Shown piece after piece: positions 10,162 through 58,140 of a stretch of 64,000 bases of DNA. Under the pieces are notes generated by a model that saw nothing but the letters and a program-made list of their open reading frames with translations, made no database searches and was not told the origin of the DNA. Position 1 is the first letter of the stretch, and every line of letters begins with the position of its first letter. The DNA is taken from positions 1 to 64,000 of the forward strand of contig JAQGDQ010000876.1 in the NCBI GenBank assembly GCA_030141605.1, in the 5' to 3' direction. The position numbers and the translations under genes are program-made. The stretch comes from Tubiluchus corallicola. Taxonomy: Eukaryota; Priapulida; Priapulimorpha; Priapulimorphida; Tubiluchidae.

Positions 10162-13100
10162 ATGCAAGAGCAGCAAAAAATAGCACCCCGTGAAAAAGGT
10201 ACACTACCAGATCTGTTATTATTACTATTACTAGGCTTTTTAATGTAGTTTTCTTGCAAAAAATCTTAGTACACCTAATCATAATTCAATTATGAGTAAC
10301 TAAAAGCATACCTGGAGGTCTTACCTGCATCTTGCTACCCAAGTACTTTGAGTTTGACAGCTTCACCAGACTAATTTTAGTTTACCCACCCTCGGTTTGT
10401 TACTTTTTTTATCCACTAATCTTGATAATGTTGTTACAAATTTCTACACTGCAATGTTTGCTTAAGTGGCATGTGTTTACGATAACTATAATATTTGGTA
10501 ATGATCGTACCTATTTCTCACTATTGCAAGACAAAAGCATTCATTATTTACGCCATTTTGCCTTGTACAATTCTAAAAAATGTTTACGTGAATACATTTG
10601 TCTCACAACGTAGTAACATTTAGAAGAGACATGGCAACTGGCCAGAAGCTGAAGAGTAGTAAATTTTTGTTTAATGGCGGCAGCGTATTCTGGCAAAAGC
10701 TTATAGATTGATTTTCAAAAAGCGGTTTAAATTAATCTAAATAATTGCCCACGTCGACTGTAGGCAGTGTGTGTGTATCGTGTTTTGTCACCTACGTGTC
10801 ACTGTATCTAGCCAAGAAAATCAAAATGGATGAAGCAGTAGTTGCTAAATCTGGCACAGGGATAGATTGGGATAAGATATAAACTGGCCCAGGAAGCCCA
10901 TTTCTTTTTGTTTCATAAGGTCAGAGGTCAATCAAAGTCAAACATTGTTAATAAATTTTTTTGTAATGATTTCCTGTGAGATTGTGAAGGCATAGATCGT
11001 TTGCACCTCTAATATCAAAGTTTTTTTAAACTGTTACAGGCTCACTAAACCCACAATTCATATTTTATTTGTTTTTACTTTTAGAATTTTAAATTGTGTT
11101 ATTTTTAATGTAATCTTTTATTTAATTAGATGAGGGTAAACTGGATGACATAGATCCAGACAGAATAGCAATGCCTCCAAGTCAATCAGCTGAAGTGCAA
11201 AGCTTGTGTAAAATAATGTTTAGTAAACTATCGGAGTATCTACAAGGTGATTTAGCAGGTACTTGAAATTGTTTTATTTTTATTTATTATGTACTGTAAT
11301 GAAACTCAATATAATGCCAAATCCTAGTCAAGACATGGTTAATTATGGTGTTAGCACACAGCATTTAAAGGAGCAGCAGTACTCCTCTTCCAATTTTTGA
11401 GCTAGGGCTACAATAGGACTGGGTCGGGGTCGAAGTTTTGAGCAAAAGCCAAAACCGAGGGGGTCGGGAATATCATGAAAAGTCTCAACGAGACACATCC
11501 AATGGTGTAAGACTCGTTAAGTTTGTTTGACTCTGGACCTCGGGGTTACAGGTTAAAGATGAGAATGTCCGGTTTTAGCGTTGAAGTGTTTGTGAACCAT
11601 CGAGAAAAAATATTCATCTGACATGCCATGAGAATGCTTAAGTAAGTTTCTAGCTCTTTGGAAAAGAAAGAACTGGGTTACAAAGGCAGTGTAATGTTTT
11701 TCTGAAGGAACTTAAAACCGGATGATTGTGTAAATAAAGAATGCTCTAAAATATTGAAAACTACAATAGCTTTTTTTAAATCAAAGCTTAGATTAAGTAA
11801 TAATTACCTCGGATACTCAAATTTTGTTAAACTTTCAAAGCTACGCGCGGCTCAGTGAATCTACTAAGACTGGCAGCAGCGCCTTTTTGTCACGTTCACG
11901 TGGCCGACAAATACAAGGCGGTACCTTGATAACCGTGATCATGAACTGCAGTGTCAGTCTCTGACGTTATATGATGTAGAGCCCATTTTCAATGACACCG
12001 TGCATTTAACTGTAGCACTTACGCAAACGAAGATGCCTGCCATTGCACAAACTGTGGTTAGTTTTCGACGGTAGCAATAGCTGTGTTCGGTTGCCGTTAA
12101 TTAACTTTCTAAGCTAATTATTCAAATATAAGAAAGAATTGCTAACTTTAATAGGCAAGAACATGGTTGTTTTGCGCAGTAAATTAAAATGAGATTGAGT
12201 CTAAACAATCGTCCGGTTTTACTTTAAGCACTTCAATAATCAGTAGTAGGGCTTATACGGTGTTGTAACGGTCGACAAAGTTTTAATTTTGGTGGTTCAC
12301 TTTTATCGATTGCTGTGTCCTGGTGCAATTCTTAGATTGAGAAGGTGATATTGTGCTAGCTTTCCGTGACTTTAACTATGCAACCAGCTGTGTATGAAAG
12401 ACAGTAACACGTATTTAATAAATGTGTTCTTTACGTTTTTAGTGACAGCCGAGGACTACAGGTTATTGGAGCAAATGAACATAGTGACAAAGGACAAGTA
12501 TGGTGAAATGACTCGGTCAGCTAAGCAGGTTGCGGCGTCTCTATATCAACTGAATGAGAAATGTATGTATGGCTAGTGTCATGCCGCTGGGGGTTTATTT
12601 TTCGAATCGGGCCCACTGGGACGCACGGGGGGGCGAAAAACCTTCAAAAATGGCCATTTTTCGGTCGTTTTTTTGCAAAACTTATACGTCTGAGATCTGA
12701 AGAATGAGAAGGGGCCATGGGTGGTGCTGGCTATGGATAGATAGCCCGTGCAGTGGAGGGTGTCATAGGCATATTTAGAATTCGCGACGGCGTCCCGTAA
12801 CGGTCGTTTTCCCGGACCCAACTCACAATTTTTTCGGAATTTTGGCCAAACATCATCTGGATAAAACGTTCTAGCAGCGCCTGGTGGGACTCTCGGAAGG
12901 TGATATATAGCTCTTTAGAAAGAGGAAGAACAGGGCTGCACGATGGTGTGGGCTATATTTTAGGGCACGTCGGCCAAAAGGAGTACTGACGTGTTAATTA
13001 GATGTTCTATTTTTGGCAATTTTCGCTTGGAAAACTGCTGACGCAAAGCCATTGTTCTGACGTCATCCATTATACTCTGCCTATAACCTTATAACTTTAA

Positions 13101-15135
13101 TTCAGTAAAAGCTACTTAGGTAAGTAAACAAACACTAGGTAGGATGTTCGCACATTTTTGATTATAAGTGGATTTATAAGCAAAATTTTTTGCGGGGCCT
13201 TTGCTAGTGGCAAATATTAATGCACAACACCATTCTAAAAGATTACGTGGTTTTCATGTTACTGTTATCATTATTGTTACAGTTACTGTTATTTTGTTAT
13301 CTTAATGTATTTGTACCATAAAAACAATTTGGATTTGTCATAGTGAAAAAATTGTAATTGTAGATAAAGCCTTGAAGCCTTATTTGGAGCAAATTGATCA
13401 ACTTGATGCTGCCGTTACAGAACTTGAGCACACCGCATATCAGCTGGATGCGTATTCTAAACGACTAGGTAATTTTCAATAATAGGTGATTCATACAGGT
13501 GTAATTATTATCCAGTTTCCTGTCCTAATCTGTTGATTTTCCAGACAATGATGCATCACAGCAATAGATTCTTTTCCAGAAACTGCATTCATGGCAATAC
13601 ATCATTTTGCTGAAATTCCCTTCTCTGTTTTAAAATCGACCGGTGTGATGCCGATCGAATTATGATAATAGCAAGCAGTTTTTTTTTAAACTGCCTTCGA
13701 GGTTTAAGCATTAAAAGCCATTATGGAGATGAAAATAGGTCTTGTTTGAAACGTGGACCCCACTGCGTACATATAAGGAATCTCACAAAATCATAATCGC
13801 AGCAGACTTTCCAGTGATGAAGCATCTGTTAATGTCATTCAGAAGTCCAATTAACATGCAGTTTTTTTGCAAAAGGCAACAACGAAACTCTCCAAAAATG
13901 CCATATTAAAATGGTGGTATAGTAGGCACCGCTTAGTAGACTCACTTTGGGAAGTGTTTTGACCCAATTAACAGACTGATTCAATTAGCCGATGGACGTA
14001 GCCCATTACTACCGTCACCACCATAGAAGTATGAGTCATCGCTCGTCACTTTAGCATGCATTGCAAAGGCTCTAAATGAATTTTAGAAACGATTTAATAT
14101 CAAAATTCCAATGTGCAATTACTTAAGAAAACTAATTTATATAAGTGAATTAATAAAAGAGGAAAATAAAGAATTGCACAAACTGATTATTACCACAAAA
14201 AATTACAAAAATTCATGCAAGGTCAGTGGCTTCATTTCTTCACGAGGAAGCTGGTGTATGAACTTCTTATAATGATAAAAATGTTGAAAATCTGTTGCTG
14301 TTTGTTGTACATAGTCACGCAAAACACCTAGTCACCTAGTGCTTGAGCTGCAGTTGGTGATGACCTTGTATCCCCTGTGAAAAGCAGCGGGAACTTCAAA
14401 AACAAAAGGCTGGGCAAGTGATTAAATGTTTAGCTTCCAGAAACAATAAGGTTAACTCCAGTGGACAAGCGGGTGACAGATTCGAAGTAAAACCGCTAGG
14501 CTAGTATATTAGCGCATGACAAACGTACTTATAAACAAAGCTGTACCTAACATGACTGTTTCTATGCATATTATAGGGCACAAAATCAATGCAAAGATGA
14601 CATAAAAGTAGTGAAAGCTCTATGATCACACACAAGTGTCTTATTTTAAGTGCGTAAAGCAAAAATATTGTGTCAGTTGTGCTGAATTATTTGAGTAAAT
14701 TGCCGACAATTTTACATGTTTTTATATACATTTGAATAGGAGCGGCCAATACCAGACGTTTTTGAGTCAATTAGACAACTGATTCTATTAACCATGAGTC
14801 TAATAAACAGCACCTACTATATTATAAAGTTTTTTAAATTCTTCAAAATAAGAAAATTATCTGTTTTGTAAACAACCCACTAAATAATAATGATATTATT
14901 TTTGTCTGTGGACATTATAGTGTGATAGGATTTTTTGGCTACTGAGATAATAAACAGTTCTGTGTCGACCTGTTCCAATTATACCTGCAACTTGGTGTCA
15001 CGATGTCGTACGTCTTTGTGCATCTACCTGTAGTCCTATAGGTTTCCTCATCCATTCCATGATTAATTAGTAAATTATGAATTAATTATGAAAATCTATG
15101 AATATGTATTCAAGTTAATTATGAAGTTTGTTTGT

Positions 15136-15166
<31 letters not shown>

Positions 15167-15447
15167 AAGTCGGCTTTTGGGTCAACAGTTAACATTAGCT
15201 CAAAGAGCTATTACCGCCGACTGTAAATAACAACCTACAGCTACATAACAGAGACTATTATTACCCCACTTTTATCCTAAATACCATGTGTCAGGCAGGG
15301 CAACAGCAGCTGCCATTTTTAAAGTCTTTGGTATAACCCGGCCGCTGGTTCGAACTCACGACCTGCCAGACGGAAAGCAGACGCATTACCACTAGACTAA
15401 ACCATCTGGTCTTTACAGAAGCAAAGTTCAAGCAGTTGGAAAAGTGA
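10162..15447 (+). CDS. BLOC1S2: BLOC-1 subunit 2 (biogenesis of lysosome-related organelles complex 1)
   Basis: Five exons give 420 nt (139 residues plus stop), close to the usual length of about 142: 10162-10198, 11130-11258, 12443-12562, 13364-13468 and 15419-15447. Recognisable family blocks appear in order: [56 protein letters not shown] and the C-terminal EAKFKQLEK. It is a small, almost wholly coiled-coil protein. BLOC-1 and the related BORC complex act in cargo sorting from endosomes and in lysosome positioning. Exon 1 (start [12 protein letters not shown]) is the weakest part: it was chosen because its donor is in the right phase and no other nearby ATG offers that. The last exon encodes only nine residues plus stop, and a tRNA-derived SINE lies immediately before its acceptor. 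Exons 2-5 are confident. Confidence 0.9.
11392..12240. repeat. Dispersed repeat shared with 42645-42980 (long copy)
   Basis: Both its left end (TTTTGAGCTAG ... GGGTCGGGGTCG) and its right ~210 bp (12030-12240, from GCCTGCCATTGCACAAACTG to AATCGTCCGG) recur at 42645-42980. There the middle ~500 bp is missing. It is intronic in BLOC1S2; class unknown. Confidence 0.65.
12566..13205. mobile_element. Interspersed element (GGGCCTTTGCTAG family), copy 1
   Basis: The left half (12566-12850) matches 18780-19025 in reverse. The right half (12900-13205) matches 50880-51170. It starts only a few bases after the exon 3 donor of BLOC1S2 and ends GCGGGGCCTTTGCTAGT. Confidence 0.7.
13918..14821. mobile_element. 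TIR element (TATAGTAGGCACCGCTTAGTAG family)
   Basis: Termini TATAGTAGGCACCGCTTAG and AACAGCACCTACTATA, with subterminal GAGTC/GACTC and GTTTTGACCCAATTA-type blocks. A partial copy lies at about 49696-49960. It lies in BLOC1S2 intron 4. Confidence 0.72.
15139..15410 (-). mobile_element. tRNA-derived SINE inserted at the BLOC1S2 exon 5 acceptor
   Basis: Read on the minus strand, a tRNA-like head (A box GGTTTAGTCTAGTGG, B box GAGTTCGAACC) is followed by a ~200-bp body and an (ATT)n tail at 15139-15156. A matching copy lies at 57871-58140. GTCTTTA occurs on both sides (15134-15140 and 15409-15415), the likely target-site duplication. The insertion ends a few bases before the exon at 15419. Confidence 0.88.
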
Positions 15448-15927
15448 AAGTTGTAAAAACTGGAGCAGCAGAAGAAGTTGATAGTCATGATGGACTGGAA
15501 AAAGCAGAACACATTCTTCATTTCACAGAATGGACAGTTAGACGGTAGAGTCAAAGATGAGGATGTACATACAAGCGTGAAGACAATGTAAATACGAATG
15601 TAAATATTGAAATTAATTTTAATAATGATAATGACTTTAATCACTGTTAAACTGTCAAAAATTTAAAAGGAAATACAGAGCAATGATTCTCAACAAGTAC
15701 AACACTTTCTAATTTCCCACACCTACTGCAGCAGCCGTACCACAATCCTGGTACAGATTATGCAAAACAAGGCATCACTGATAAATCTTTAGAGCTGATG
15801 TCAACATAGTGCAATCTATTATTTTTCTTCCTACCATTTCCACTAACACATCCTTCTACCCTTCCTGTGTGATCTAACCTTTCACCCAGTTCTTTTTTTT
15901 GTTCACTCATCCATTCTTTTTTATCAG

Positions 15928-16139
15928 GTTCACATGACAGTGGGCTTATACAAGCCTTTGCTTCTCTAGCCCACTGAAGTACAATTATTCTTTTATGATA
16001 ACGATAGTGTATGAAACATAATAATTTATTACAGTTCACATGACAGTGGGCTTATACAAGCCTTTGCTTCTCTAGCCCACTGCAGTACAATTATTCTTTT
16101 ATGATAACGATAGTGTATGAAATATAACAATTTAATACA
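15928..16139. repeat. 106-bp tandem duplication
   Basis: GTTCACATGACAGTGGGC ... repeats at 15928 and 16034 with almost no changes. It lies downstream of BLOC1S2. Confidence 0.88.
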
Positions 16140-17899: not shown

Positions 17900-20800
17900 T
17901 CATAGACTAGTATTTGGTCTGTTAATGATTACAACTCCGGCATAACTTCGTCCTATACTCATACAAGACGGTAATAGTGACCACATGTCAGTTTTTGGAT
18001 TGTACACTTCTACTGAAGTAAGATTAGACGACCCGTCGTCACCGCCAACAACGTAAAGTAATCCGTCCACTGCTGCAACTCCTGAAATATAAAAACTCTA
18101 CAGTAAGACAGTAAGTGTGCTTGTATTATTAAATTTTCTTCTATAGTTATTTCAAAGGCTGGTGTGAACTCAAACTGTTGTATCAATCAATTCTTTTTGT
18201 AATTTAACATTCACATTGACCAAATACTTAGAACTACATATTGAAAACGAATTTGCAACAATTATTTCAACTTTGTTTATATTCACAAAAGATTCAAGAT
18301 TGAATTCTTTCGGACTTTATTTACTCAAAAGTGTATTTTCATAACAGTACGTCCGACAGTACTACAATTCTCCATCTGCGAGACCTTGATAAATGAGAAC
18401 AATGGCAGAGTGATCACAGTCATGCTTGGCTGTAAAGTTAAGCAATACAGAGCTTGACTAATAAACGGATAGGTGATTTCATCTGCCTGCTACTCTGTAC
18501 AGTTTTCAACTATTTTTCTTATTGAAATAAATGTAATTGTTGAATTAACAATCTTAAGATGAAATTTCTGCAATTAATCTCAATTAGATGTTTATAAAGG
18601 AATTATTTCTACTGCACGCGGTATGAGAGAGCATTGCCATTCACTTATTAATTAAACAACATTTCCATTTTAGAAATCTCTGCAACTTGCAAATGAGTTA
18701 AACAATCTTAGAAACTAGCAAATGCCCCGTCAAAAATTTTGCGTATAAATACACTCATACGGCTGTTTGACCAAAATTTCGAAAAAATCACGAGTTGGGT
18801 CCGGGAAAACGACCGTTACGGGACGCCGTCGCGAATTCTAAATATGCCTATGACACCCACCGCTGCACGGGCTATCTATCTATAGCCAGCACCACCCAAG
18901 GCCCGTTCTCCAGATCTCAGACGTATAACTTTTGCAAAAAACGGCCATTTTTGGAGGTTTTTCGCCTCCCGTTCCTCGCGGTGGGCCCGATTCGAAAAAT
19001 AAACCCCCAATGGCAAGACACTAGATCGAGACCTTTCGTTTGATGTGTAGATCGCCGCAAATGGTGCCGTCATCGGAGCTGTAGCCTCGAATCTCATATA
19101 TAAATATATAACATACCAGTAGAATTAATATATACGATAGCACAGTAAAAGATATTTGCCATACTTATAAAAATCTCAATGCTTTTATTCAACGCATTAC
19201 AGAAGCCCGTCGAATTTAAATGATTGATTACCTGCATTTCTCCGACACATTGACATATCAGCTACTTGCATCCATGAATTGGTCTCACAATTGTAACACT
19301 CCACCGTTTTTCTCACCAGAGGGCCATCGTGCCCGCCGACGGCATACAACAAATTGTTTAATACTCCAACACCTACGCAAAGCAATAGAGCTAGAAATAT
19401 CTTCATAGTAGTAAAAATGCTTGGGTAATTAATTCACTTTGGATGTTCTTGGTAGGGGGAAGGGGTAGCGTTAGGATGGGTATCCTTGATTCTTAAAAAG
19501 CAGAGAAAATTAGAAACATGATTAGGTACACGATATTTAACTTATATGGTCAACCTTTGGTATAAGATACTCGCTTATAAGACATTCGCTTATAAGGAAC
19601 CACACAGTCAACCTCGGGTATAAGGTACTCGCTTATAAGGGACATTCGCTTATAAGGAACCACACAGTCAACCTCGGGTTTAAGATACTCGCTTATAAGG
19701 GACCACCAATACGGGTCCCGATTTTTCGTAACGTTTTTCCTATGTAAAAATCTTCGTATATAAGGTACTCGAATATAAGGGACTTTCGCTTATAAGGGAT
19801 GATATCTTCAGGTCCCGCGTAATAGAATCCCAAGAAAATTACCTTGCATATAAGGGATCCTATGATCAAAGCGAAATTGATCGATTTTTAACCACAATTT
19901 TTCCAAAACTCGGCCTTCGAACAACTCGGTTACCGTGGTCACATACATCTCAAATCACTGAAGGAGCTTCCTACATACCGTTTGCACTGAATGTGTAGCA
20001 ATAATCCATAAAAATATGGGTAAAAGTGCAGAAAAGTACAGGCCTAGATGCACCCTCAGTGTGACTCAACTTCGGCTATAAGGGGCGTTTTTTTTCTGGT
20101 CCCGAGGTGTCCCTTATATCCGAGGTTTACTGTACTCAGTTTAATAAAGAGAACTACGGGGAAATTTCAGTGCAATTAAAATGTTTATTCGCTGAAGATG
20201 CTGAATCTTGCTTACCTGCGCCACTCCTCCTTGCTGACATTTCAGCTACAGGTGACCAGGTATCACTTTCTGAACTATACAGCTCAACACTAGAAAGACA
20301 TTGTCTAGAAACGCCATCGTAGCCTCCTACAGCATAGAGACGACCTGAAAAACGTGCGAGAACATGTTTCTGAGTACTTTGCATACATTATCGGGTTCTC
20401 CTCTAAGCACAATTATTTAAGTGAAGCTGCTTTGTTTACGTTTCCAAAGGATTTTTATCAAAAAGAAATCACAATATGGCAGTCTGTTCTTGGCTAAGAG
20501 AGAAGTTGTTGTTGTTTTGTCTCAGTTAAACCATTTATTTGTCAAGAGTAGTAGAGCCATGATATAAAACTGCGAGAGACTACTACTTCATGATGCCCAA
20601 TCTCAAAAAATTCATGTTTGAGTAGCTTTATTACGTTTTATCTGTAAGAAAAATCAGAACAAAATGTAACGAACTAATTTGAGCCAAAAAGGAAACAAAG
20701 AAATTAATAATAAAGTGAGACTGAATAAACTTACATCATGGCTCTACTACTCTTGACAAATAAATGGTTTAACTGAGATAAAACAACAACAACAACAACT

Positions 20801-23800
20801 TTCTTAGCCAAGAACAACAACAACAACAACGACTCTCTTAGCCAAGAACAGACTGCCAACTAGGCAGGTAAACTAGCTCTGTCAATAGAGCATGACAAAA
20901 AGAAGCCAAGTCAAGACATACATACGAATGCAGTAAAAAAAGAACAGTATAGGGGGTTTACAGAATGAAAGAACACTGAAGTACAACCTAAAATCCTTCA
21001 CAACATGGTTTGATGCTTTTCATAATCTGGCTATAGCACATGTCTGTTTTAGCTGCATTAATGAATTTGGCACAATGTTCACAGCTTCATATAAGTCAAA
21101 AGATTTTGAAGAAAAAAAATTATAACATGCACGAAATAGACTTACGCCAAGAACAGTCTGGTTCGCAATAATTTTAACAATTTGCATTTTCTAACGTGTA
21201 ACCAGTGAATGCGGTGGGTAGGCACAAAGCTAAAGTACCAATAACTTTTGACCATCAGCCTTATACTACATTGTACATGCATGTAGCGAAACATCGGTAA
21301 GGTTTATTGCCGCAGAATTTCAATAATTTCCAATTCTTACCATTGATGACTCCTACGCCAACACTGCTTCTACGTGTGCTCATAGGAGACACCGCTTTCC
21401 ATTCGCCCACATGAGGATCATAGCACTCCACTGAATTTAACCCTTTCAAATTAATTAATAATTAATAATAGCAAATTGCTTGTCTTCTATTTAAAACAGA
21501 ATCTTAATATAGGTTTTACACGTCAAATGTAGACATAGGGATTTCGAATGTGTTTTGGTAACTCAAATGTGACTTAGGTAAGTCAAATGTAGATGCGGTA
21601 CTTTGAATAAAACGGTAATTAACTCATTTAAGTGCAAATTACAAAAAGATAAAACCAAATTAAAATTATATTTTATGGTCATGGTGCTATCGGCAGCATC
21701 AATTTTTATTATATTTAATTAATTTGCAACTATTTGTATGGACGTTAATACATTTTTCAAATATAAAGAAAATGTTTATTTGATAAGAACACTTAAAAGT
21801 GTTGTACATAAATAAGTTAACAATTATACAATTATTAATATATACACCAATTCTACATTTTATTTGTCAACGTTTTACAAAAAATGTCGGCAGAAAAGAA
21901 TAAATCGGTTCCCACTTCCCAATGAACAGTGAATCACTAATTAGTTTTTTAAGTAATGCATTAGCACTGCATTAATGAATTAGTTTCTCTCAAGAAACAT
22001 TGTTTATTTTAAGAATGTATTGTTTTCTCTAACAGTTCCAATGGTATGTAAAGTTTGCAGAATATTAGTGAACCTATAACGTTGTTATTTTAACTTAAGA
22101 GCAATTATTAAATTGAAATTAAAGAAGATTAAATTTAACATCCTTAAACTTTACCACCTATCCACATTTGAGATACCAATGTCACATTTGACTTGACATG
22201 TGTCTACATTTGACTTACCAAAAACGCTTAAGATTTCTTGAAAACCATTGTTAACACATTTGAACTACCTAAGTCTACATTTGAGTTACCAAGACACATT
22301 TGAATTACCTAAATCTACATTTGAGTTAACGCACATCTACATTTGACATGTAAAACCTATAGTTAATAACAACTTCAAGAAGAAAGTTAACACCTAAATT
22401 CCATAGCAATGAAACACTCAGCAGACATGATACGACCTGCTCACTACGGGTGAGCATTGTGCAGACATGACACGACCTGCTCACTAGGGGTGAGCATTCT
22501 CTACCAGAAAGCGAATTCGAATCTGGATTTGATTTTGTTCTGCAGTAAAACCGCCATTAGTTTGTTAAAAATTTTGCACAGAAACTGCAGCTAAATTGCA
22601 CTAATTTCATGCTGTTTCAAACATTTTAATGATGAAGAACGTATGTGGCCCAAATGCTGAATTATTCGAATCTGTAATTTTAGGTTCGAATTCGATTTTA
22701 GGTTCAATGCTCAACCCTACTCCTTACCATGATTAAAAACTGAAGGACATCACAGAACAACACAGTATTTTTGCATTTTTTGTCATTTCTTTTAGGAAAC
22801 TGTACATCTTAAACAAAAAGTACTTCACGTTAATAAGTCAAATTAACAAAAAAGTAATTTTCCTGAATGACAAACTTGTGACATACTACAGCACCATCAT
22901 GGTAAGTACTACGGCCAAATCACGCTGAAAACACCGGTTCTCATCTGATCACCGAAGTTAAGCAACGTAGAGCCTGGTTAGTGCTTGGATGGGTGACCGC
23001 CTAGGAATCCCAGGTGCTGTAGGTTTGCGGGATGCCCACACTGTATCTTGACACTAGGCGGAGGAGCTGCACAAGCAGCCAACGGCTAGAGGGCGGAGGA
23101 GGTCAAGTGACCGAACGGCCATGTGTAGAGGAGTAAACCTTCCAAATCAGGAGTGGAGCCCCGAAAGAGGACCAGTGCAGCATGCTCACTGGCTCCGGCA
23201 GCTCCTGCAGACAACCTGGTGCCAAACGTATAGTTTCACTTTCCTTTGGACTACATCAGGGAGGAAGAGAGGGGGTTCCTGTTGTCTGGGCAACTCAGGA
23301 TCTCCATACACCTTACCCAGGCGTGCGCCCTGGAGACGTTCAAGGATCGGACTCTCTTTGCGCACATTCCATTGTCTTCCGAGACAGAAGGATGCCAACA
23401 ACATCATGGTAAATGTCAGACAACACAAGAGATGAGGGAGTCAGAACAGCAGCTAAAATGTTTTGTAAACATGTCATTAACCCGACATCACATCAGTACC
23501 AAATACTCGTTCTTATCAATCTAATCCAGACACTCACCTGTAGAGCCATCAAAGCCACCCACGGCATAAATGAGACCATTCAAAACAGCTGCACCTAATG
23601 TACTACGCCTTGCGTCCATACTTTGCAGGGAGATCCACTGATCCTTCTGAGGATTGTACGTGTCGACAGACCGCACTCGCAAGTTACCGTTGAATCCTCC
23701 GACTGCATAAACCATTCCATTTAACACTGCCACACCTGTAAACACGCAAAGATGAAAAGCCGACTCTAAATATACTTCTCAGTATAGACATAGACATTTT

Positions 23801-26800
23801 ATTTTTCTCCAATTTGTGTCACAAATTTCCATTTTACGAAAAAAAAACTTTGTCTGTGGAGATGGGGCAAGGAAAGACCGTAGGTCATCTAGTCACTCAC
23901 CCCTTATAATTTAATATTGATGACAGAAAAAAGAATTGATGACACAGGATGCAATTAAACTAATCAAAAATAAAGCAATAACAAAAGCAAAATTATAAAA
24001 ACAAACATAACAACAATAGCATAAGTGAAAAAAAATGATAATAAATGAAGATGATGAATAAGTATCACAATAATTAGTTACGAATTAAATAAAATGATAA
24101 TAATGTACAGTTGTTTACAAAATTCTCGACAACAAAAAATAATGTGAATATGATTATATAACAGAAAAAAAGAAACATAAAAGCAAAGCAGAGCTGCTAA
24201 TTTATGTCACCGTCCAAAATTAATTGCTAATTGGGTATAGTGCATACACAAAAAATGTGTTTTAGCAGTTTTTTTACAAAATAATTTTTATAAACAAACA
24301 CTGGTAAAGTGAAATGACGATGAAATTAATCAACACTCTTGACACGACACCATCTGTATAGTTCTTAATTACGTTATTTTTAATATATGAAGTTGCAATC
24401 CAGAGAAATTAAACATCGCTTAAAAAGTTCATAGATCATAACTGCGATTCAGAATGCAGTATAGAAACGTGGTCTTTAAGATTAATCATAAGCGCTAAAT
24501 TCCTCTTGACTTACTTATCTGATCCCACCATTCGTCTTTCACTGATTTGTGGCAACATTTTTCCTTCATAATACAGTCGACCCTCGTTAAACCGGACCCC
24601 ATTAGCCCGGATATCGGATAAGATGGACGTCATCCGTGTAAAGGAAATTGACCGATTTCTGTCCGAGCGCTAAACACAACACGGCCTACCAACTGTACAA
24701 TAATTTCTTTATCCTCACAGGTTAAGTATTTTACAGTATAGTATATAGTGCAATGTATATAGGCCTTATTAAGGTGATTATTCCTGTATAATATAGACCA
24801 TATATAGGCATATCGGATAAATTGGACAATCGGCTAAACCGGACACCCCCCAATTAGTCCAGTTTAACGAGGGTTGCCTGTAATTGCATTTGTATTCTGC
24901 ATACTGTTAGTAATGGAGTCTGACTGTGTTGAGCCAAAATAAATAAAACCCAGTAGTTTATGTCAAATGTAAATTAGCCTAAGGAGACACTAACGTATGT
25001 TGAATTAGTAAGGATATGTGAGAATCCAAGATGTTGCAATAAGATCTTATACATTGTTGTACAACTGACCTCCAAGTTCTTTGGAATCAGCACATTTGGA
25101 TCTTCAGGGAATGAATTACATAAAGGCTCTTTCACATAAACAACTAGGTTTATTGATTGTGGCTTGTCGTGATTAAGTAATCCGTGACAGATGCCAACTA
25201 ACCGATTATTTACTGCACATCGTAATATTAACAAAATAAAGCGTTAATTAAATGAAATGCTTAATCTTCTCTGCACTTTCCAACCTGTTTGTTGAGCTGC
25301 CTGAGCATTGTATAAGCTACTTAGCATTGATAATCTCATACTCTTCAGACGTCTCATCTTGTTAAGCTGCCTGAGCATTGTATAAGCTACTTAGCATTGA
25401 TAATCTCATACTCTTCAGATGTCTCAGCGAGTTTATATAAAAGTTGCGTGACCAGTTCATTTACTTGTCACCTGTTGAAGGTGAGATATATTGCAATCAG
25501 GTTTTTAGCCTTAGTAAAAGTACAAAACTACGAGTGTCATCAAATATGATTAAGTACAGTTGCTTAAATGATGAAGCAATTAGACAGACTTGGAGTAAAA
25601 ACTAAACTAGAACTACTGACCGGCTCTGCACCTGCGTGTTTGCATATCAGACACCTGATACCAACGTTCTTGCTGGAAGTCGTAACATTCAACTGACTTT
25701 ATGGCTTTTGGTGCTTGTCCACCAATTACTAGCATAACCTGTTGAAAAACAAATACGGTCTAATATCATATAAACTCTAAACTGTTATAATGAAACAGAC
25801 CTTCCTTAACTCACTGCTATCAATGTTGGGAAAAAAGTCGCAGTAAATTAAATTGTAACCTACAAGTTAATCATTAAGTTTCCCAAGTTTTTATTTTCCC
25901 AAAAACATTTAAGTTGACTGTCTCCTACCTTTGCTTGTCAGGTTATTTGTTGATGTTTATTAGCAAAACCGACAAAATTCAACATAAAAAAATTCACATA
26001 ACTAAATCTATTACCGACAAAATTCAACATAAAAATTCACGCAACTAAATCTATTACCGACAAAATTCAACATAAAAATTCACGCAACTAAATCTATTAC
26101 CGACAAAATTCAACATAAAAATTCACGTAACTAATCTATTACCGACAAAATTCAACATAAAAATTCACGTAACTAAATCTATTACCGACAAAATTCAACA
26201 TAAAAATTCACGCAACTAAATCTATTACCGACAAAATTCAACATAAAAATTCACGCAACTAAATCTATTACCGACAAAATTCAACATAAAAATTCACGCA
26301 ACTAAATCTATTACAGCGAATATTCAGATAATCGCAAAATGCTTATTAGTTTATACATCAATTGTACAAACCTTAGGTAATCCGACTGGTGTACGAGGTT
26401 TAGTTCTTGGTGTTCTGAACATAGTTTTCTGCTCACCTCGAAGCAAGTGAAATTTCATGGCTTCTATAAGGAAGTCTTTGCAAACGGCATTACTACGTAT
26501 TAATGGTTCGTCCTCCACTGTCTGAACAAGATATTCCTGTAGTGATTAAATAACAACTTGTAAAAGATTTAATTAAGAATAACAAAAATTGCAAACTTGA
26601 TTAACTCAAACCATGTGACAAATTGAGAAGAAACTCAAGCTTTTGCAAAGTTGTATGTAGAGAAGACAAGATAAAAACTGTGTGGAAGTTGGAATTGTAC
26701 ATTATAATTAGGTGCTGCCATCTATGTGCTAATCCTGTTACATTCTACCAGCTGACTTACCCCCAGTATAATTGTATGGTCCAGTGAATGCATATTCACT

Positions 26801-29800
26801 GGTTCTCTCCCTATTTTAAAGTAATGGTTGTTGTGAAGCCTGTGCAAGTCTGCCTAGGTCAAGTCCTATACCTGTATATACTGACTGGTTTTGCTTTCTA
26901 GTCACTCTCACTCTCATTCTCAGTGTTCAGTCATGCTACTCATGTGTCTGTAGTTTAATAAACACTTCTGCTTTGTGCAGTGCAAATATGTATTACAGAT
27001 ATTTTATTCTTGTTCATACTTCTGTGCCTAAACTCAATCATAACAAAGTGAGTGAACAACAACTTCAAAAATGACTTTCACAAACTGTCTGCTACACAAT
27101 TTTAAATTTACAACTAGACAGTTTTAAGATTCAGAAAACAGAAGATTTAGTAAAAAGCCGCCAAAAATTGATCTTTCTCTATTTTTTTCATAATCATGCA
27201 TTTCGCTGTATAATGTATATCGCATACAAGAGTCAAGTATTAAACAAAACCTTTTACATAAAGGCTTTTGTAACTCCAACAAACATTGAAATTTTTTAAA
27301 GCCTTATTAAGATTACACAAAGAATTCATAGTTATTATTAAACAAAAGAACTTATAAATTAATAACTTACGTTTTTCTGGTGAATTTCGAACACGTGCAT
27401 TGCGCTAAAGATCGCCATGTTTCATGTCTTTGGCGCGAGTGAGCGAGAATGACGTACGAGGTACAGAAAGTGTCTTTGGTTACCGATGTTTGCTTAGCGA
27501 TCTTTGGTGACCGCGTGACTGGTCATTCATAGGTCATTTGTCTTGCACAACGAAAAATGGCGGTTCTTCAAAATTAACAACGAAGTGATAAAAAATCAAA
27601 AGAAACAAAGTTTTACAGTCAGCTTAGAACAGGGGTGTGCAAATTGCGACCCGCGGGCCACTTGCCCGGGAAGAGATTTGTCAACCTAATGAAAGTGCGG
27701 AGAGGGTGATTAATTGAGTGTATCCAGCTGAAGTCCCTGCCACGATCCCAAAGATAGTGCAGGTAGTTTTTTCTACTAGATCGGATGCCATTAACCATTA
27801 CAAGACGGTTGTAGCTTAATAACAATGTACTACACAGACTGTGTGATACACATTACTAATATGCATTGCAATGAAATTACCACTATCTGTCCTCAAAGTA
27901 GAAATATATGGTTTGTAATATAAATTTTAATAACTTCTAAAATAGTTTCTTTAGTGTAGTAGCAATGATGTACGCAGGTCGGATGCAAAAAAATCATTAT
28001 TAGGCCTTTCTGTACTTGGCTGCTTGATCAAACTGCCTGTGGCCCACAGGAATTGCGGGAAAGTTTAATGTGGCCCGGCTAGTCACATAATTTGCACACC
28101 CCTGGCTTAGAATAAAACAAATTGAATATTTGTAATGAGAGTAGGATTTTAAGTTGCAAAAGTTTATATTACAGTTTGACTTTAAGAAATATAGAAAGCA
28201 TAACTAGTAGACATGATTTTCCAGTAGAAATAGGAAGATATTAGTCAAGAATTAGAACCAGGAAAGAGAAGAGATGAAAAAATTCACTGACACAGCAAGA
28301 AATACCAACCTGTGCAAATTGAGATTAACTTGTCAAATACTCTGGATTTAAAAATAAAAAACAAAAAATCTTATGCGTTACAAACAAACAATCTAACCTG
28401 TGATAAAAGTGGCAACCTGACATGCTCCATCAATTGAGCAACAAATTGACTTCTAAAGCTGATATCATGTTTAATCCACGTTATCACTGCTTCAAAAACC
28501 TATATCCAAAAATACATGTACCTATTATACAATCATGAAAAGTACCGTATTTATTCGAGTATAACGCGCACACCCCTAATTTTCGATTAAAAATCAGTAT
28601 CAAATTTTGTTTCACTTTCTCTCGGCTCAGACCATGCATTGTAAGTGACAAATGTTATTGAACACGTGCCGCCATGATAAAAATCATTTATTGACAACGT
28701 AAAGTAAACTATGAACACAATACCGAAATAAAATTTACAATATTTATTTAAAATCCTTCAAAGTCCGATTCATCATCAGATACACCAAAGAGTTGTTCCC
28801 ATTCTTCTTGAGTCAATTTATCATCAGTGTCCCAGTTGGGAGGAACTTCTGTTTCTTCAGTTTCTTCACTTTCTTCTGAGTCTGAATCCCACAGCAGGTC
28901 AGATGACGCATCCGATTATTGAATATTATTGATTATTTCCTTAGCTACGCCTCGCCTCTGCAGTGAGTGTTGCTCATGAGCCATTGAGAATTATTTATTT
29001 TAGATCGTCCACGCAAGTGCTTTGGATACTGCTACTAAAAATAGACCATAGGCGTTTTGTGGGTCGAGAGATGTGGCTGCATTCAATGTTTTGCGATTGT
29101 GGTCAGCGATATCTTCGACTAATGAGTCACTGCACAAATAATATATTGATACATTTAAGCACATCTCCCCAGCCCTGATTTATAACGCGTACCTAAACTT
29201 TGAGTTCTTTTTTAGGTAGAAAATTTGCGCGTTATACTCGAATAAATACGGTAATATTTAAATATCTACAGTGAACTGAATGTGTGCAAGTCTCCTTTTA
29301 ATATAATAATCATTACTATCTAATACATTTCATTTGATTCACAGATCCAGTGTGTACACGTAAAATGCCCATTTACAAAAAGTAATAAATTCCTATAAAG
29401 AGCCACAATACTTCATGAGCAATTTAAAATCCATTAGTGTTTCTCTCTAATGAAAAAAATCAAAATGCAAAGCAGCTAATATAAAAAAACCTATAACAAA
29501 ATGCGAGTGAAAATATCATTAGTTTTGTCACAAATAGTCAGCTGTTTTAGAAAAATCATAAGAACGTGGAGTAATTATAATGGCATTAAACTGCAGTAAA
29601 TAACTAATTAAACTTTAGAATTTGAAATAAGGCAAAGGTATAATAGATCTCTTATTGTAGATTTAAATTTGTAGAACAAGGAAAATGATGCAAATGTTTA
29701 TTCCACTATACCAGCAATGGAGAGTCAACTTTATTTATTTCGAAAATAAGCAAAGTAAACATTTTACAGAAACAGAATTTCTCTGAATACCTACCCTTTC

Positions 29801-32800
29801 CTCAGATGGTACCGTCAGTTGATCACTGCTGATAAGTAGATCCACATCTTCTATTGGCAATGACAAGAATTCTTCACATTGAACAACTTCACTGAAATGC
29901 TGTTCAGTATACTGGTGAGCATATTGCAGCAGTTCTGTACACGCGTGCAGATCTGCAAATGATTTGATTCCCAGACAGTTTGATGGATGTAGCTGAATTT
30001 TTAAAAAATCACAACAAGCGTCGCGCACCTCTATCAACTGCAGCAGATTGGCAGCCGGCAAAAGAATCTGAAAGAGCAGAAAAACACAGACATTAGCAAA
30101 CACGGACAATTATCTAAATTACTGTAATAATAATGCAGTGCGCATGAGTTAAGCACTGCACTTTAGGTAGAAACAGTACTGTCGCTCACACAGTACGTGT
30201 TGTCAGTTGCACACGTGTCAGAGATAAGGTGCTGCACTTTAGTGCCAAATACCAAAAATTAGATTCTATGAAGCTGAGCCTATATATTTAACTATATAAA
30301 ATGATTGCCCGTATCATTGGTTGTAACAATTTCACGTATCTTAGGATATCGGCGTATTTTAGTTTAAAAGCGATTCACTTCTGCAACTAACGAGATCAAT
30401 CGTATTCCATCGCTTACTTTTCAATTTCAATGTTGTAAATAAATGCACAAACCTGCACATTTTCCTCTGTGACTTGTATTTCAGCAGTGTAGACAAATTC
30501 TATAAGTAATACTAAAGCATGTGGATCAATTCCCTGCAACACTATCCTTCCCGCTTTGCTCTCACTAAGGTCACTGTTGAACATTGCATAAAAGTACGGA
30601 CTACAGGAGGACAGTACAGCCTTGTGAGCTTCAACCTCAGTATTGTCAACAACCAGCGTTATATCACATAGTCGCTTTTGTCTACAACAATAAATGTTAT
30701 TTTATAAAGCCATCTCAACGTGTGCCAATAGTAAAAAAGGGATTCAAAGAGGGAATTAATCGTGTGATTAGTGATTACGCACTTGTAATCAACTACCAAT
30801 TCAACAATTTTCCATGGCTATCAGTCTTCCAGACTGTGTAACGAAAAAGGAAATCATATCGCGTGAGGATCACACTGTTTCGTAATTCTATAGGTTTTAC
30901 ACGTCAAATGTAGACACAGGAAAGTTCAAATGTGACTTAGGCAAGTCAAATGTAGACATAGGAATTTCGAATGTATTTTGGTAACTCAAATGTGACTTAA
31001 GTAAGTCAAATGTAGACACAGGAATTTTGAATGTGTTTTGGTAACTCAAATGTGACTTAAGTAAGTCAAATGTAGACACAGGAATTTTGAATGTGTTTTG
31101 GTAACTCAAATGTGACTTAGGTACGTCAAATGTAGACATAGGACATTTGACTTGAAATGTGTCTACATTTGACTTACCAAAAGCGCTTAAGATTTGTTGA
31201 AAACCATTGTTAACACATTTGAACTACCTAAGTCTACATTTAAGTTACCAAGACACATTTGAATTACCTAAGTCTACATTTGAGTTAACGTAGGTCTACA
31301 TTTGACATGTAACACCTATAGTATAGAAGTCACGAAAAGTTTAAAAAAATCCCACATTATGTATTACACCTAAACTCTGTGAAGAACAAAATCAGTGAAT
31401 TTCACTTTGAAATTAAACATCGCCTATGTGCCATCTTGCTGTGAACAGAATTCACATTTTGAGATCTATATGTGTAACTGCAATATGCATAACGACACTT
31501 ATTTATTGGAAGGTGCTGCCCTCTACGAGCAGCGCGGAGAGGAAAGGACAGGAGAACAATGATGGTCGCGCTTTTATTTACAACAATGTTTTTTATCGTT
31601 ATTGTGTTATAGTTAATAACAGTGTTTAGTTATAACCAAATTTGTACCTTGAGAAATTTTAAATCTTGATGAAGAGCCAACGATGTAAGTTACATGAATT
31701 TAAATAATTTAATTAAGTTTATGAATTCAATCTGTGAAATTTGAGAAAGTACTTTTACCAATAGGTTGTCATCTTCTTAATTATTAAGCTTCTGTTTATC
31801 ATTCTATTTATTTTTCTTACTTGTTAATGTTCTCTTTATTATTCTCTTTAGAATAAACGACTTTGGAACATGAATGAAATAGTGAAGGCTTTCTGTACAT
31901 AACAATACGAGACTCAAACATTTAAACTTGGGCACCAACAACTGTAGCCATAACGACTGGTTAACAGTTAGGTGCCGTTCACACTGCATCCGGATGCTAC
32001 TGCGTTTACACGTGCAGAACAGCTGGGCAAAAAAATCAATAGGAATAGCTGCAGAAAAAGAACAATGCATACGCAGGCTACATAAACAGGTACATTGAAA
32101 ACAATATAAACGATCTTATCTATTCCGCTCCCTCTCCCCAATCCCATCGGGATGGCAGGTAAACGCCACTTTAAGAATTGTAAAGAAATTAGTATAATAC
32201 GGTTTTTTACCTTAATTTATCATATTACTAATACTAAAGACTACTGTACAAATTTTAAACACTAAGCGGATCGTAAACTTCATACTTGCGTAAAATATTT
32301 AAAACTTCAAAAGCCTTTCTGGAATGTTCCAGATTGTGGTATGGTGGCACGTCTCTCCGATCTCTCTGCATATGTTCTGCAAAAGAAATAAACTACATAT
32401 TTACAGGGTTCTAGCGTAGCATAAAAAATATTAAAGATTGCAGGTTAACACATTAAGAAACCTCTAATCCTCCAAACTATGCATGTATGTATATAGCATT
32501 GTTCATGTACAGAAAAGCCAGTATAGCCAGTAAGCCATTAGGCATAATATTTTGCATTTAGTTTAACTCATACACAGTCATACCTCGGTTTTCGAACATC
32601 TCAGTACTCGTACAAATCGGTTTTCGACCAGAAAATTCGAGTTGAAATTGTCTCTGCTCTCGCCCAGAATTTCGGTACTCGACCAACCGCCAAGCACGTG
32701 ATGGTTCGCCAAAAGCATGTGCGGCGAGCCGAGCGTAACCGACTGCGCCCGAGTGCAGTCACACACGTGTTTCTGCTCTTGCTTATGTATACCATCACAC

Positions 32801-57870: not shown

Positions 57871-58140
57871 ACCAGACGGCTTAGTCTAGTAGTAGTGGTA
57901 ATGCGTCTGCTTTCCGTCTGGGAGGTCGTGAGTTAGAACCAGCGGCCGGGTCATACCAAAGACTTTAAAAATGGTACCCGCTGTTGCCCTGCCTGGCACA
58001 TGGTATTTAGGGTACAAGTGGGGTAATAATAGTCTCTGTTATGTAGTTGTAGGTTGTTATTTACAGTCGGCGATAATAGCTCTTTGAGCTAATGTTAATT
58101 GTTGACCCAATGGCCGACTTTAAATAAAGATTATTATTAT
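57871..58140 (+). mobile_element. tRNA-derived SINE, second copy
   Basis: Starts ACCAGACGGCTTAGTCTAG, has a B-box-like GAGTTAGAACC, and ends TAAATAAAGATTATTATTAT. The tail (ATT)n and body match the reverse complement of 15139-15410. No clear target-site duplication was found. Confidence 0.85.

Follow-up and report, generated by a model that had tools for sequence, protein, structure and literature searches.

An antisense tRNA-derived SINE in the last 3' splice site region of BLOC1S2 in Tubiluchus corallicola and its probable effect on splicing

The BLOC1S2 gene and the SINE in its last intron

The window, the whole stretch of 64,000 nucleotides of Tubiluchus corallicola DNA analysed here, carries a BLOC1S2 gene on its plus strand. 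Based on a search of the assembly (343.5 Mb in 2344 contigs), PF10046 (BLOC1_2) matches two exons, both within the window, and this BLOC1S2 gene is the only one found in the assembly. The exon at 12443–12562, which ends in LNEK, lies between an acceptor AG ending at 12442 and a donor GT at 12563; it was located by its PF10046 match and by tblastn with the human protein as query. The exon at 13364–13468 (exon 4 of the initial annotation) ends in YSKRL, matches PF10046 with 41.9 bits, and meets its intron at CTAG/GTAATT. This intron, read directly from the sequence, spans 13469–15418 (1950 bp) and is followed by the last coding exon at 15419–15448, which encodes EAKFKQLEK and a stop codon. The joined peptide of these three exons aligns to PF10046 from position 18 to the final position, 96 of 96, with 96.6 bits, which places it in the BLOC1_2 domain, and it also matches chain H of PDB 9tqb, BLOC-1 subunit 2, with an E-value of 9.9e-14. 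A further coding exon lies upstream near 11168–11263, its ends being approximate. Elsewhere in the window, open frames on the minus strand at 19200–30700 resemble, by eye, an exon-split kelch/BTB gene, and a 5S rRNA gene is found at 22907–23025 (Rfam RF00001, 100.2 bits).

The last intron of BLOC1S2 ends in a tRNA-derived SINE of 271 bp at 15141–15411, antisense to the gene, whose limits were set by the assembly search and a 41-copy consensus. Its right end is 7 bases upstream of the last coding exon. On its own strand, the minus strand, the element ends in an (ATT)n 3' tail (15141–15157) and begins with a tRNA-like head, in which we assign TAGTCTAGTGG (15389–15399) to the A box and GAGTTCGAACC (15347–15357) to the B box by their consensus motifs; both boxes are present in this copy and in the family consensus. 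ARAGORN, run with the bacterial code, called no tRNA genes in the window. The central part (AAAGACTTTAAAAATGGTACCTGCTG...) may resemble the Meta domain of the MetaSINE superfamily; a literature text search with letters of that domain returned no paper.

When the region 15126–15447 was searched against the assembly, 40 places were scored among 1837 first-look candidates, the locus itself at 100% identity and the others at 93–96%. The family is probably larger than these 40 places, and the exact 16-base head GACTAAACCRTCTGGT occurs 400 times in the assembly, 195 times forward and 205 times in reverse. The element is thus an interspersed repeat and not a chance likeness. Furthermore, we compared 41 copies, namely 24 loci including the BLOC1S2 copy, 16 further scored places, and a second copy within the window at 57871–58140. 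All 41 end in CTGGT on the gene strand, with C as the next base in 28, and their (ATT)n tails vary in length. Collectively, the element is multicopy and interspersed, with uniform ends and a simple-repeat 3' tail, as in a tRNA-derived SINE, and the size of the family makes both of its ends secure. The initial annotation had placed a SINE inside a 3' splice site of BLOC1S2, and the insertion of an antisense SINE into that region is supported.

Measured against the 41-copy consensus, the BLOC1S2 copy has 11 differences in 254 positions (4.3%), the highest value of the set against a median of 1.6%, although this comparison is biased because the copies were selected by similarity to the BLOC1S2 copy. 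Three of its differences are CpG transitions, and its non-CpG divergence is 3.5%. The divergence from the family consensus indicates that the insertion is not fresh. Heads of the SINE also occur in tandem at C204:18132–18207 and C623:361786–362939, where spacings of 30 bases and of about 380 bases were seen, and one further locus (L027) has two heads in succession.

Flanks of the element and the GTCTTTA repeat

To the left of the SINE lies TTTGTTTGTCTTTA, ending at 15140, and to the right GTCTTTACAG at 15409–15418, directly followed by the exon. The pyrimidine-rich tract AAGTTTGTTTGTCTTTA at 15124–15140 is the old tract of the acceptor, now displaced. Its end is 278 bp upstream of the AG, in agreement with the initial estimate of about 275 bp, and whether or not a target-site duplication was formed, the native AG was never broken. 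The heptamer GTCTTTA, which occurs six times on the plus strand of the window and three times on the minus strand, stands on both sides of the element (15134–15140 and 15409–15415), and the initial annotation took it as a target-site duplication. The repeat itself is present as described. However, because GT is found in all 41 copies and C in 28 of them, the GT and probably the C of the right copy are family sequence, and only TTTA is independent.

We compared the flanks of each copy with swapped flanks in an anchored test of 43 copies, consisting of the 41 above and the copies at a V-ATPase and a C185 locus described below. Own-flank scores of at least 5 were reached by 6 of the 43 copies against 3.6 expected from swapped flanks, scores of at least 6 by two against 1.1, and scores of at least 7 by none against 0.3. 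Across several forms of the test the family-wide excess is at most slight, and the tests on 41 copies lie near the control. The four bases from the fourth to the seventh after CTGG are rich in A (46–61%) among the 41 copies, and possibly this is the signature of insertion instead of clear duplications.

Two readings of the flanks were weighed. The TTTA match may be due to chance in T-rich sequence, the right TTTACAG being simply the old end of the intron; the family origin of GT and C, together with own-flank matches that scarcely exceed the swapped control, speaks for such an insertion without duplication. Yet no copy among the 43 has a better flank match than the BLOC1S2 copy, which shares the top score; the chance of such a match per copy is about 2–3% depending on the form of the test (2.7% when anchored), and the V-ATPase copy matches directly at 10 of 13 bases at both of its ends. 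Target-primed reverse transcription of SINEs, moreover, usually leaves target-site duplications. Taken together, we regard a chance match as a serious possibility that falls short of probable, and it is compatible with the history proposed below. A short duplication, of TTTA or possibly of GTCTTTA through overlap with the end of the SINE, seems likely.

With a duplication, the ancestral empty site would be TTTGTTTGTCTTTACAG with a single TTTA, and without one it would be TTTGTTTGTCTTTATTTACAG. We searched the assembly for such a site: the flank 15412–15636 matched the BLOC1S2 locus alone, and the flank 14840–15140 matched its own locus and one 51-base stretch elsewhere (86%). Longer flanks could not be used since they are swamped by repeats at 15655–15960 and 14560–14825. 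The former is a multicopy repeat that closely follows the last exon, for the most part 93–96% identical to the listed copies; the latter is a second multicopy repeat, intronic, at about 77–82%.

Acceptor, branch point and comparable loci

To place the acceptor on a scale, we built a weight matrix over positions −20 to +3 from 34 acceptors of the assembly, 32 from five CCT genes and two from BLOC1S2. Three acceptors whose AG lies one base inside a codon were added by hand, one ambiguous acceptor was dropped before the count, and other chaperonin exons such as C29 were left out; such a model is small, and known CCT sequences were used in placing some of the exon starts. The left-out scores of the genuine set range from −1.45 to 12.56 bits with a median of 7.84, and position −3 is T in 18 and C in 16. 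The assembly also contains full-length intronless chaperonin genes on separate contigs alongside the intron-bearing CCT genes, which suggests that the animal DNA was sequenced together with that of prokaryotes.

On this scale the native CAG at 15416–15418 scores 4.34 bits, with six of the 34 genuine acceptors lower, so the present BLOC1S2 acceptor is weak, yet inside the range of the genuine acceptors of the assembly. Its pyrimidine fraction of 0.62 is ordinary in that 19 of the 34 are no higher, whereas only 7 of the 34 have a T fraction at or below its low value of 0.38. The next AG upstream stands at a distance of 23 nt; 12 of the 34 have theirs at 23 nt or less. Scored in the same way, the AG at 15418 ranks tenth among the 137 AGs between 13540 and 15700. 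The family-consensus sequence in the same place would score 4.73, which indicates that later changes in this copy have not improved the acceptor. The SINE head is no special tract either, given that 39% of random 13-mers put in its place score at least as high. Inside the element, an AG at 15293–15294 on the plus strand has risen from 0.91 bits in the family consensus to 5.2 in the BLOC1S2 copy through three changes, two of them at CpG sites, and now outscores the native AG.

The reconstructed acceptor before insertion was better placed. The left tract joined to CAG gives 6.75 bits (13 of 34 lower), a value reached by 2.7% of random 17-mers from the window and, among the left flanks of 40 other SINE copies, by 2; with TTTACAG kept it gives 7.31 bits (15 of 34 lower), and here 10% of random 13-mers do as well, as do 3 of the 40 flanks. 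The acceptor-like quality of the left flank on rejoining is suggestive and not decisive. Both the duplication and the no-duplication reading thus lead to a sound ancestral acceptor, at 6.75 and 7.31 bits, respectively. The initial proposal that the duplication rebuilt the acceptor is accordingly unnecessary: the AG was never lost, and the ancestor without a duplication is an equally good acceptor.

The same annotation had held that both tract and branch point must now come from the SINE. The AG is indeed adjoined by SINE sequence, together with TTTACAG, and judged by distance the SINE likely supplies the branch point as well. The candidate is GACTAAAC (15395–15402, plus strand) from the antisense head, with its putative branch A at −19 relative to the exon. 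A branch-point score from a hand-made weight table, based on the consensus motif, was uninformative and was rejected as evidence: the median of shuffled sequence equals that of genuine introns, and 68% of shuffled controls reach the score of this site.

We scanned the assembly for SINE heads that have YYYNCAG no more than 9 bases, or YYYNTAG no more than 12 bases, downstream. The scans gave 5 and 10 places, and the 15 reduce to 12 loci after three pairs are collapsed: C185 with its inverted copy (98.9%), C542 with C2210 (97.2% over 3.1 kb), and C689 with C1463 (97.0%). Coding-like sequence follows at three of the 12, namely BLOC1S2, a V-ATPase subunit a exon, and an open frame on C185. At the nine others, the open stretch after the AG is 7–24 codons in seven cases and at most 30 in two. 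Control heads, 20 plus-strand entries from the first 100 places listed, were compared by open-frame length only; their longest frames run from 5 to 61 codons, so frame length alone is weak evidence and only Pfam-supported cases are firm. We do not claim the number of loci as an enrichment, a few being expected by chance on a rough estimate from assumed intron numbers.

At the V-ATPase locus (regions of C542:10151 and C2210:127641), an antisense copy of the same SINE ends 14 nt before the exon on both contigs. The exon encodes 42 residues followed by GTAAG, matches PF01496 with 44.7 bits, and aligns to residues 170–211 in solved structures of V-type proton ATPase subunit a. Its acceptor, which keeps a run of seven T beside the AG, reaches 7.31 bits, more than 15 of the 34. 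The two versions differ at an AG that shortly precedes the branch candidate (ACTATACTAAAC versus ACTAGACTAAAC), and the flank match of 10 of 13 bases at both ends is seen in the C542 version. For a paralogous exon on C2082 (76% identical), the 3.1-kb locus gave no match to the SINE. The occurrence of the same SINE in the same orientation on two contigs indicates that the arrangement persists in a conserved gene.

At the C185 locus (C185:13401–14600, exon-like part 418–599), an antisense SINE directly precedes TTCTTACAG and an open frame of 85 codons with GTAAGT after 60, and the acceptor scores 5.11 bits. The inverted copy lies on the same contig at 30187, and no other copy of the frame was found in the assembly. 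The frame has no significant Pfam match, the best being RAWUL (E 0.22), under the cut-off. Candidate branch adenines fall at −19 in BLOC1S2 and at −26 and −23 at the V-ATPase and C185 loci. Conceivably, the antisense head is a portable, splice-compatible 3' end whose A-box region in reverse reading (GACTAAAC) provides a branch point at much the same distance each time, and its insertions before exons have been tolerated repeatedly; we consider this quite unlikely as a general account.

Proposed history and splicing outcome

Based on these observations, we consider it probable that the SINE retroposed in antisense orientation into the last BLOC1S2 intron, parting the pyrimidine tract from the CAG, that its head now supplies the branch point, and that the native AG is still mostly used. 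Insertion may have proceeded by target-primed reverse transcription that began at a nick following the T-rich strand (...GTCTTTA); such a start would account for the antisense direction of the SINE. The spliceosome would now rely on the branch-point candidate in the head and on the short tract TCTTTA, and exon 4 would still be joined to the native AG in most transcripts, yielding the conserved C-terminus. Given an acceptor that is weak yet inside the genuine range, we expect splicing to the native AG to be leaky, with retention or use of the AG at 15294 as by-products, and BLOC1S2 splicing probably still works, less well than before the SINE.

Simple skipping is no option for the last coding exon. 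Splicing failures would instead result in retention or in use of an AG inside the SINE, and either would cost the last nine conserved residues. The retention product ends RLGNFQ-stop, four extra codons after RL with EAKFKQLEK lost, as the initial annotation correctly read, and after a retained intron no further coding junction would follow on which surveillance could act. The AG at 15294 would open a stretch of about 33–35 residues before a stop. The next AG past the old tract, at 15169, would give RLVGFWVNS-stop, but it is an AAG, a type absent from the 34 genuine acceptors. The last exon still encodes the conserved end downstream of an element with 4.3% divergence (3.5% outside CpG sites), and because the insertion is not fresh, its cost seems to be tolerated.

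Two other outcomes have to be set against this one. The acceptor might be effectively dead, so that most transcripts retain or end in the intron, with a protein ending in RLGNFQ and with exon 5 left as a relic or as 3' UTR. Such an outcome would fit the weakness of the AG, the higher-scoring intron decoys at 14576 (8.45 bits), 13544 (6.35) and 14086 (6.32), and a loss limited to nine conserved residues, and a published account of human NF1 associates de novo Alu insertions in the AG or polypyrimidine tracts of introns with skipping of the exon that follows (4 of 14 Alu; PMC3219598). We nevertheless hold it to be unlikely: the score falls among those of real acceptors, the same arrangement stands at an internal V-ATPase subunit a exon, albeit with a longer T tract, and exon 5 keeps its conserved C-terminus, an argument of little power for 30 bases at 4% divergence. 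Alternatively, the acceptor inside the SINE might be used and part of the element exonized, in the manner described for long-tailed dog merle alleles (PMC7349775). The rise of the AG at 15294 above its consensus score and the open stretch that it would add before a stop point in this direction; against it stand the loss of the conserved protein end, the native AG downstream with nearly equal strength, and the ATA tail on the gene strand, which offers no pyrimidine tract, unlike the poly(T) of merle. Hence we think exonization very improbable, and mostly native splicing from a SINE-derived branch point remains our preferred reading.

The merle SINE, a SINE-Cf at the boundary of PMEL intron 10 and exon 11 with a reported splicing effect, is the closest precedent in the accounts consulted (PMC7349775). 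According to that account, it shares with the BLOC1S2 element its tRNA-derived nature, reverse orientation and position at a 3' splice site, as well as a native acceptor retained on the exon side, a simple-sequence tail upstream, and a cryptic acceptor inside the SINE; at BLOC1S2, similarly, an antisense element lies within the tract region with the AG and exon intact. In contrast, merle is described with a 15-bp target-site duplication rather than one of at most 4–7 bp, and with a poly(T) that can serve as pyrimidine tract and whose length controls splicing, where the BLOC1S2 tail reads ATA; moreover, the exon affected here is the last coding one (PMC7349775). The NF1 Alu insertions, as reported, likewise place a retroposon inside a 3' splice site, but in the patients the result is skipping of the exon that follows, whereas the BLOC1S2 exon is last and the insertion not fresh (PMC3219598). 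In primates, a novel MIR + AluSp exon is described in BLOC1S2 itself, with SINE sequence supplying splice signals including the branch point (PMC6822395); gene and source of signals are the same, although the event is unrelated to the SINE of the window.

Collectively, these precedents make the BLOC1S2 SINE a case of a known kind: an element at a 3' splice site, not fresh, that spared the native AG of a gene seen at one locus of the assembly. With the merle and human Alu cases already known, it alone changes no general view. Together with the two further loci of the same arrangement, it raises the question of whether an antisense SINE head may act as a stand-in branch point and tract in natural genes.
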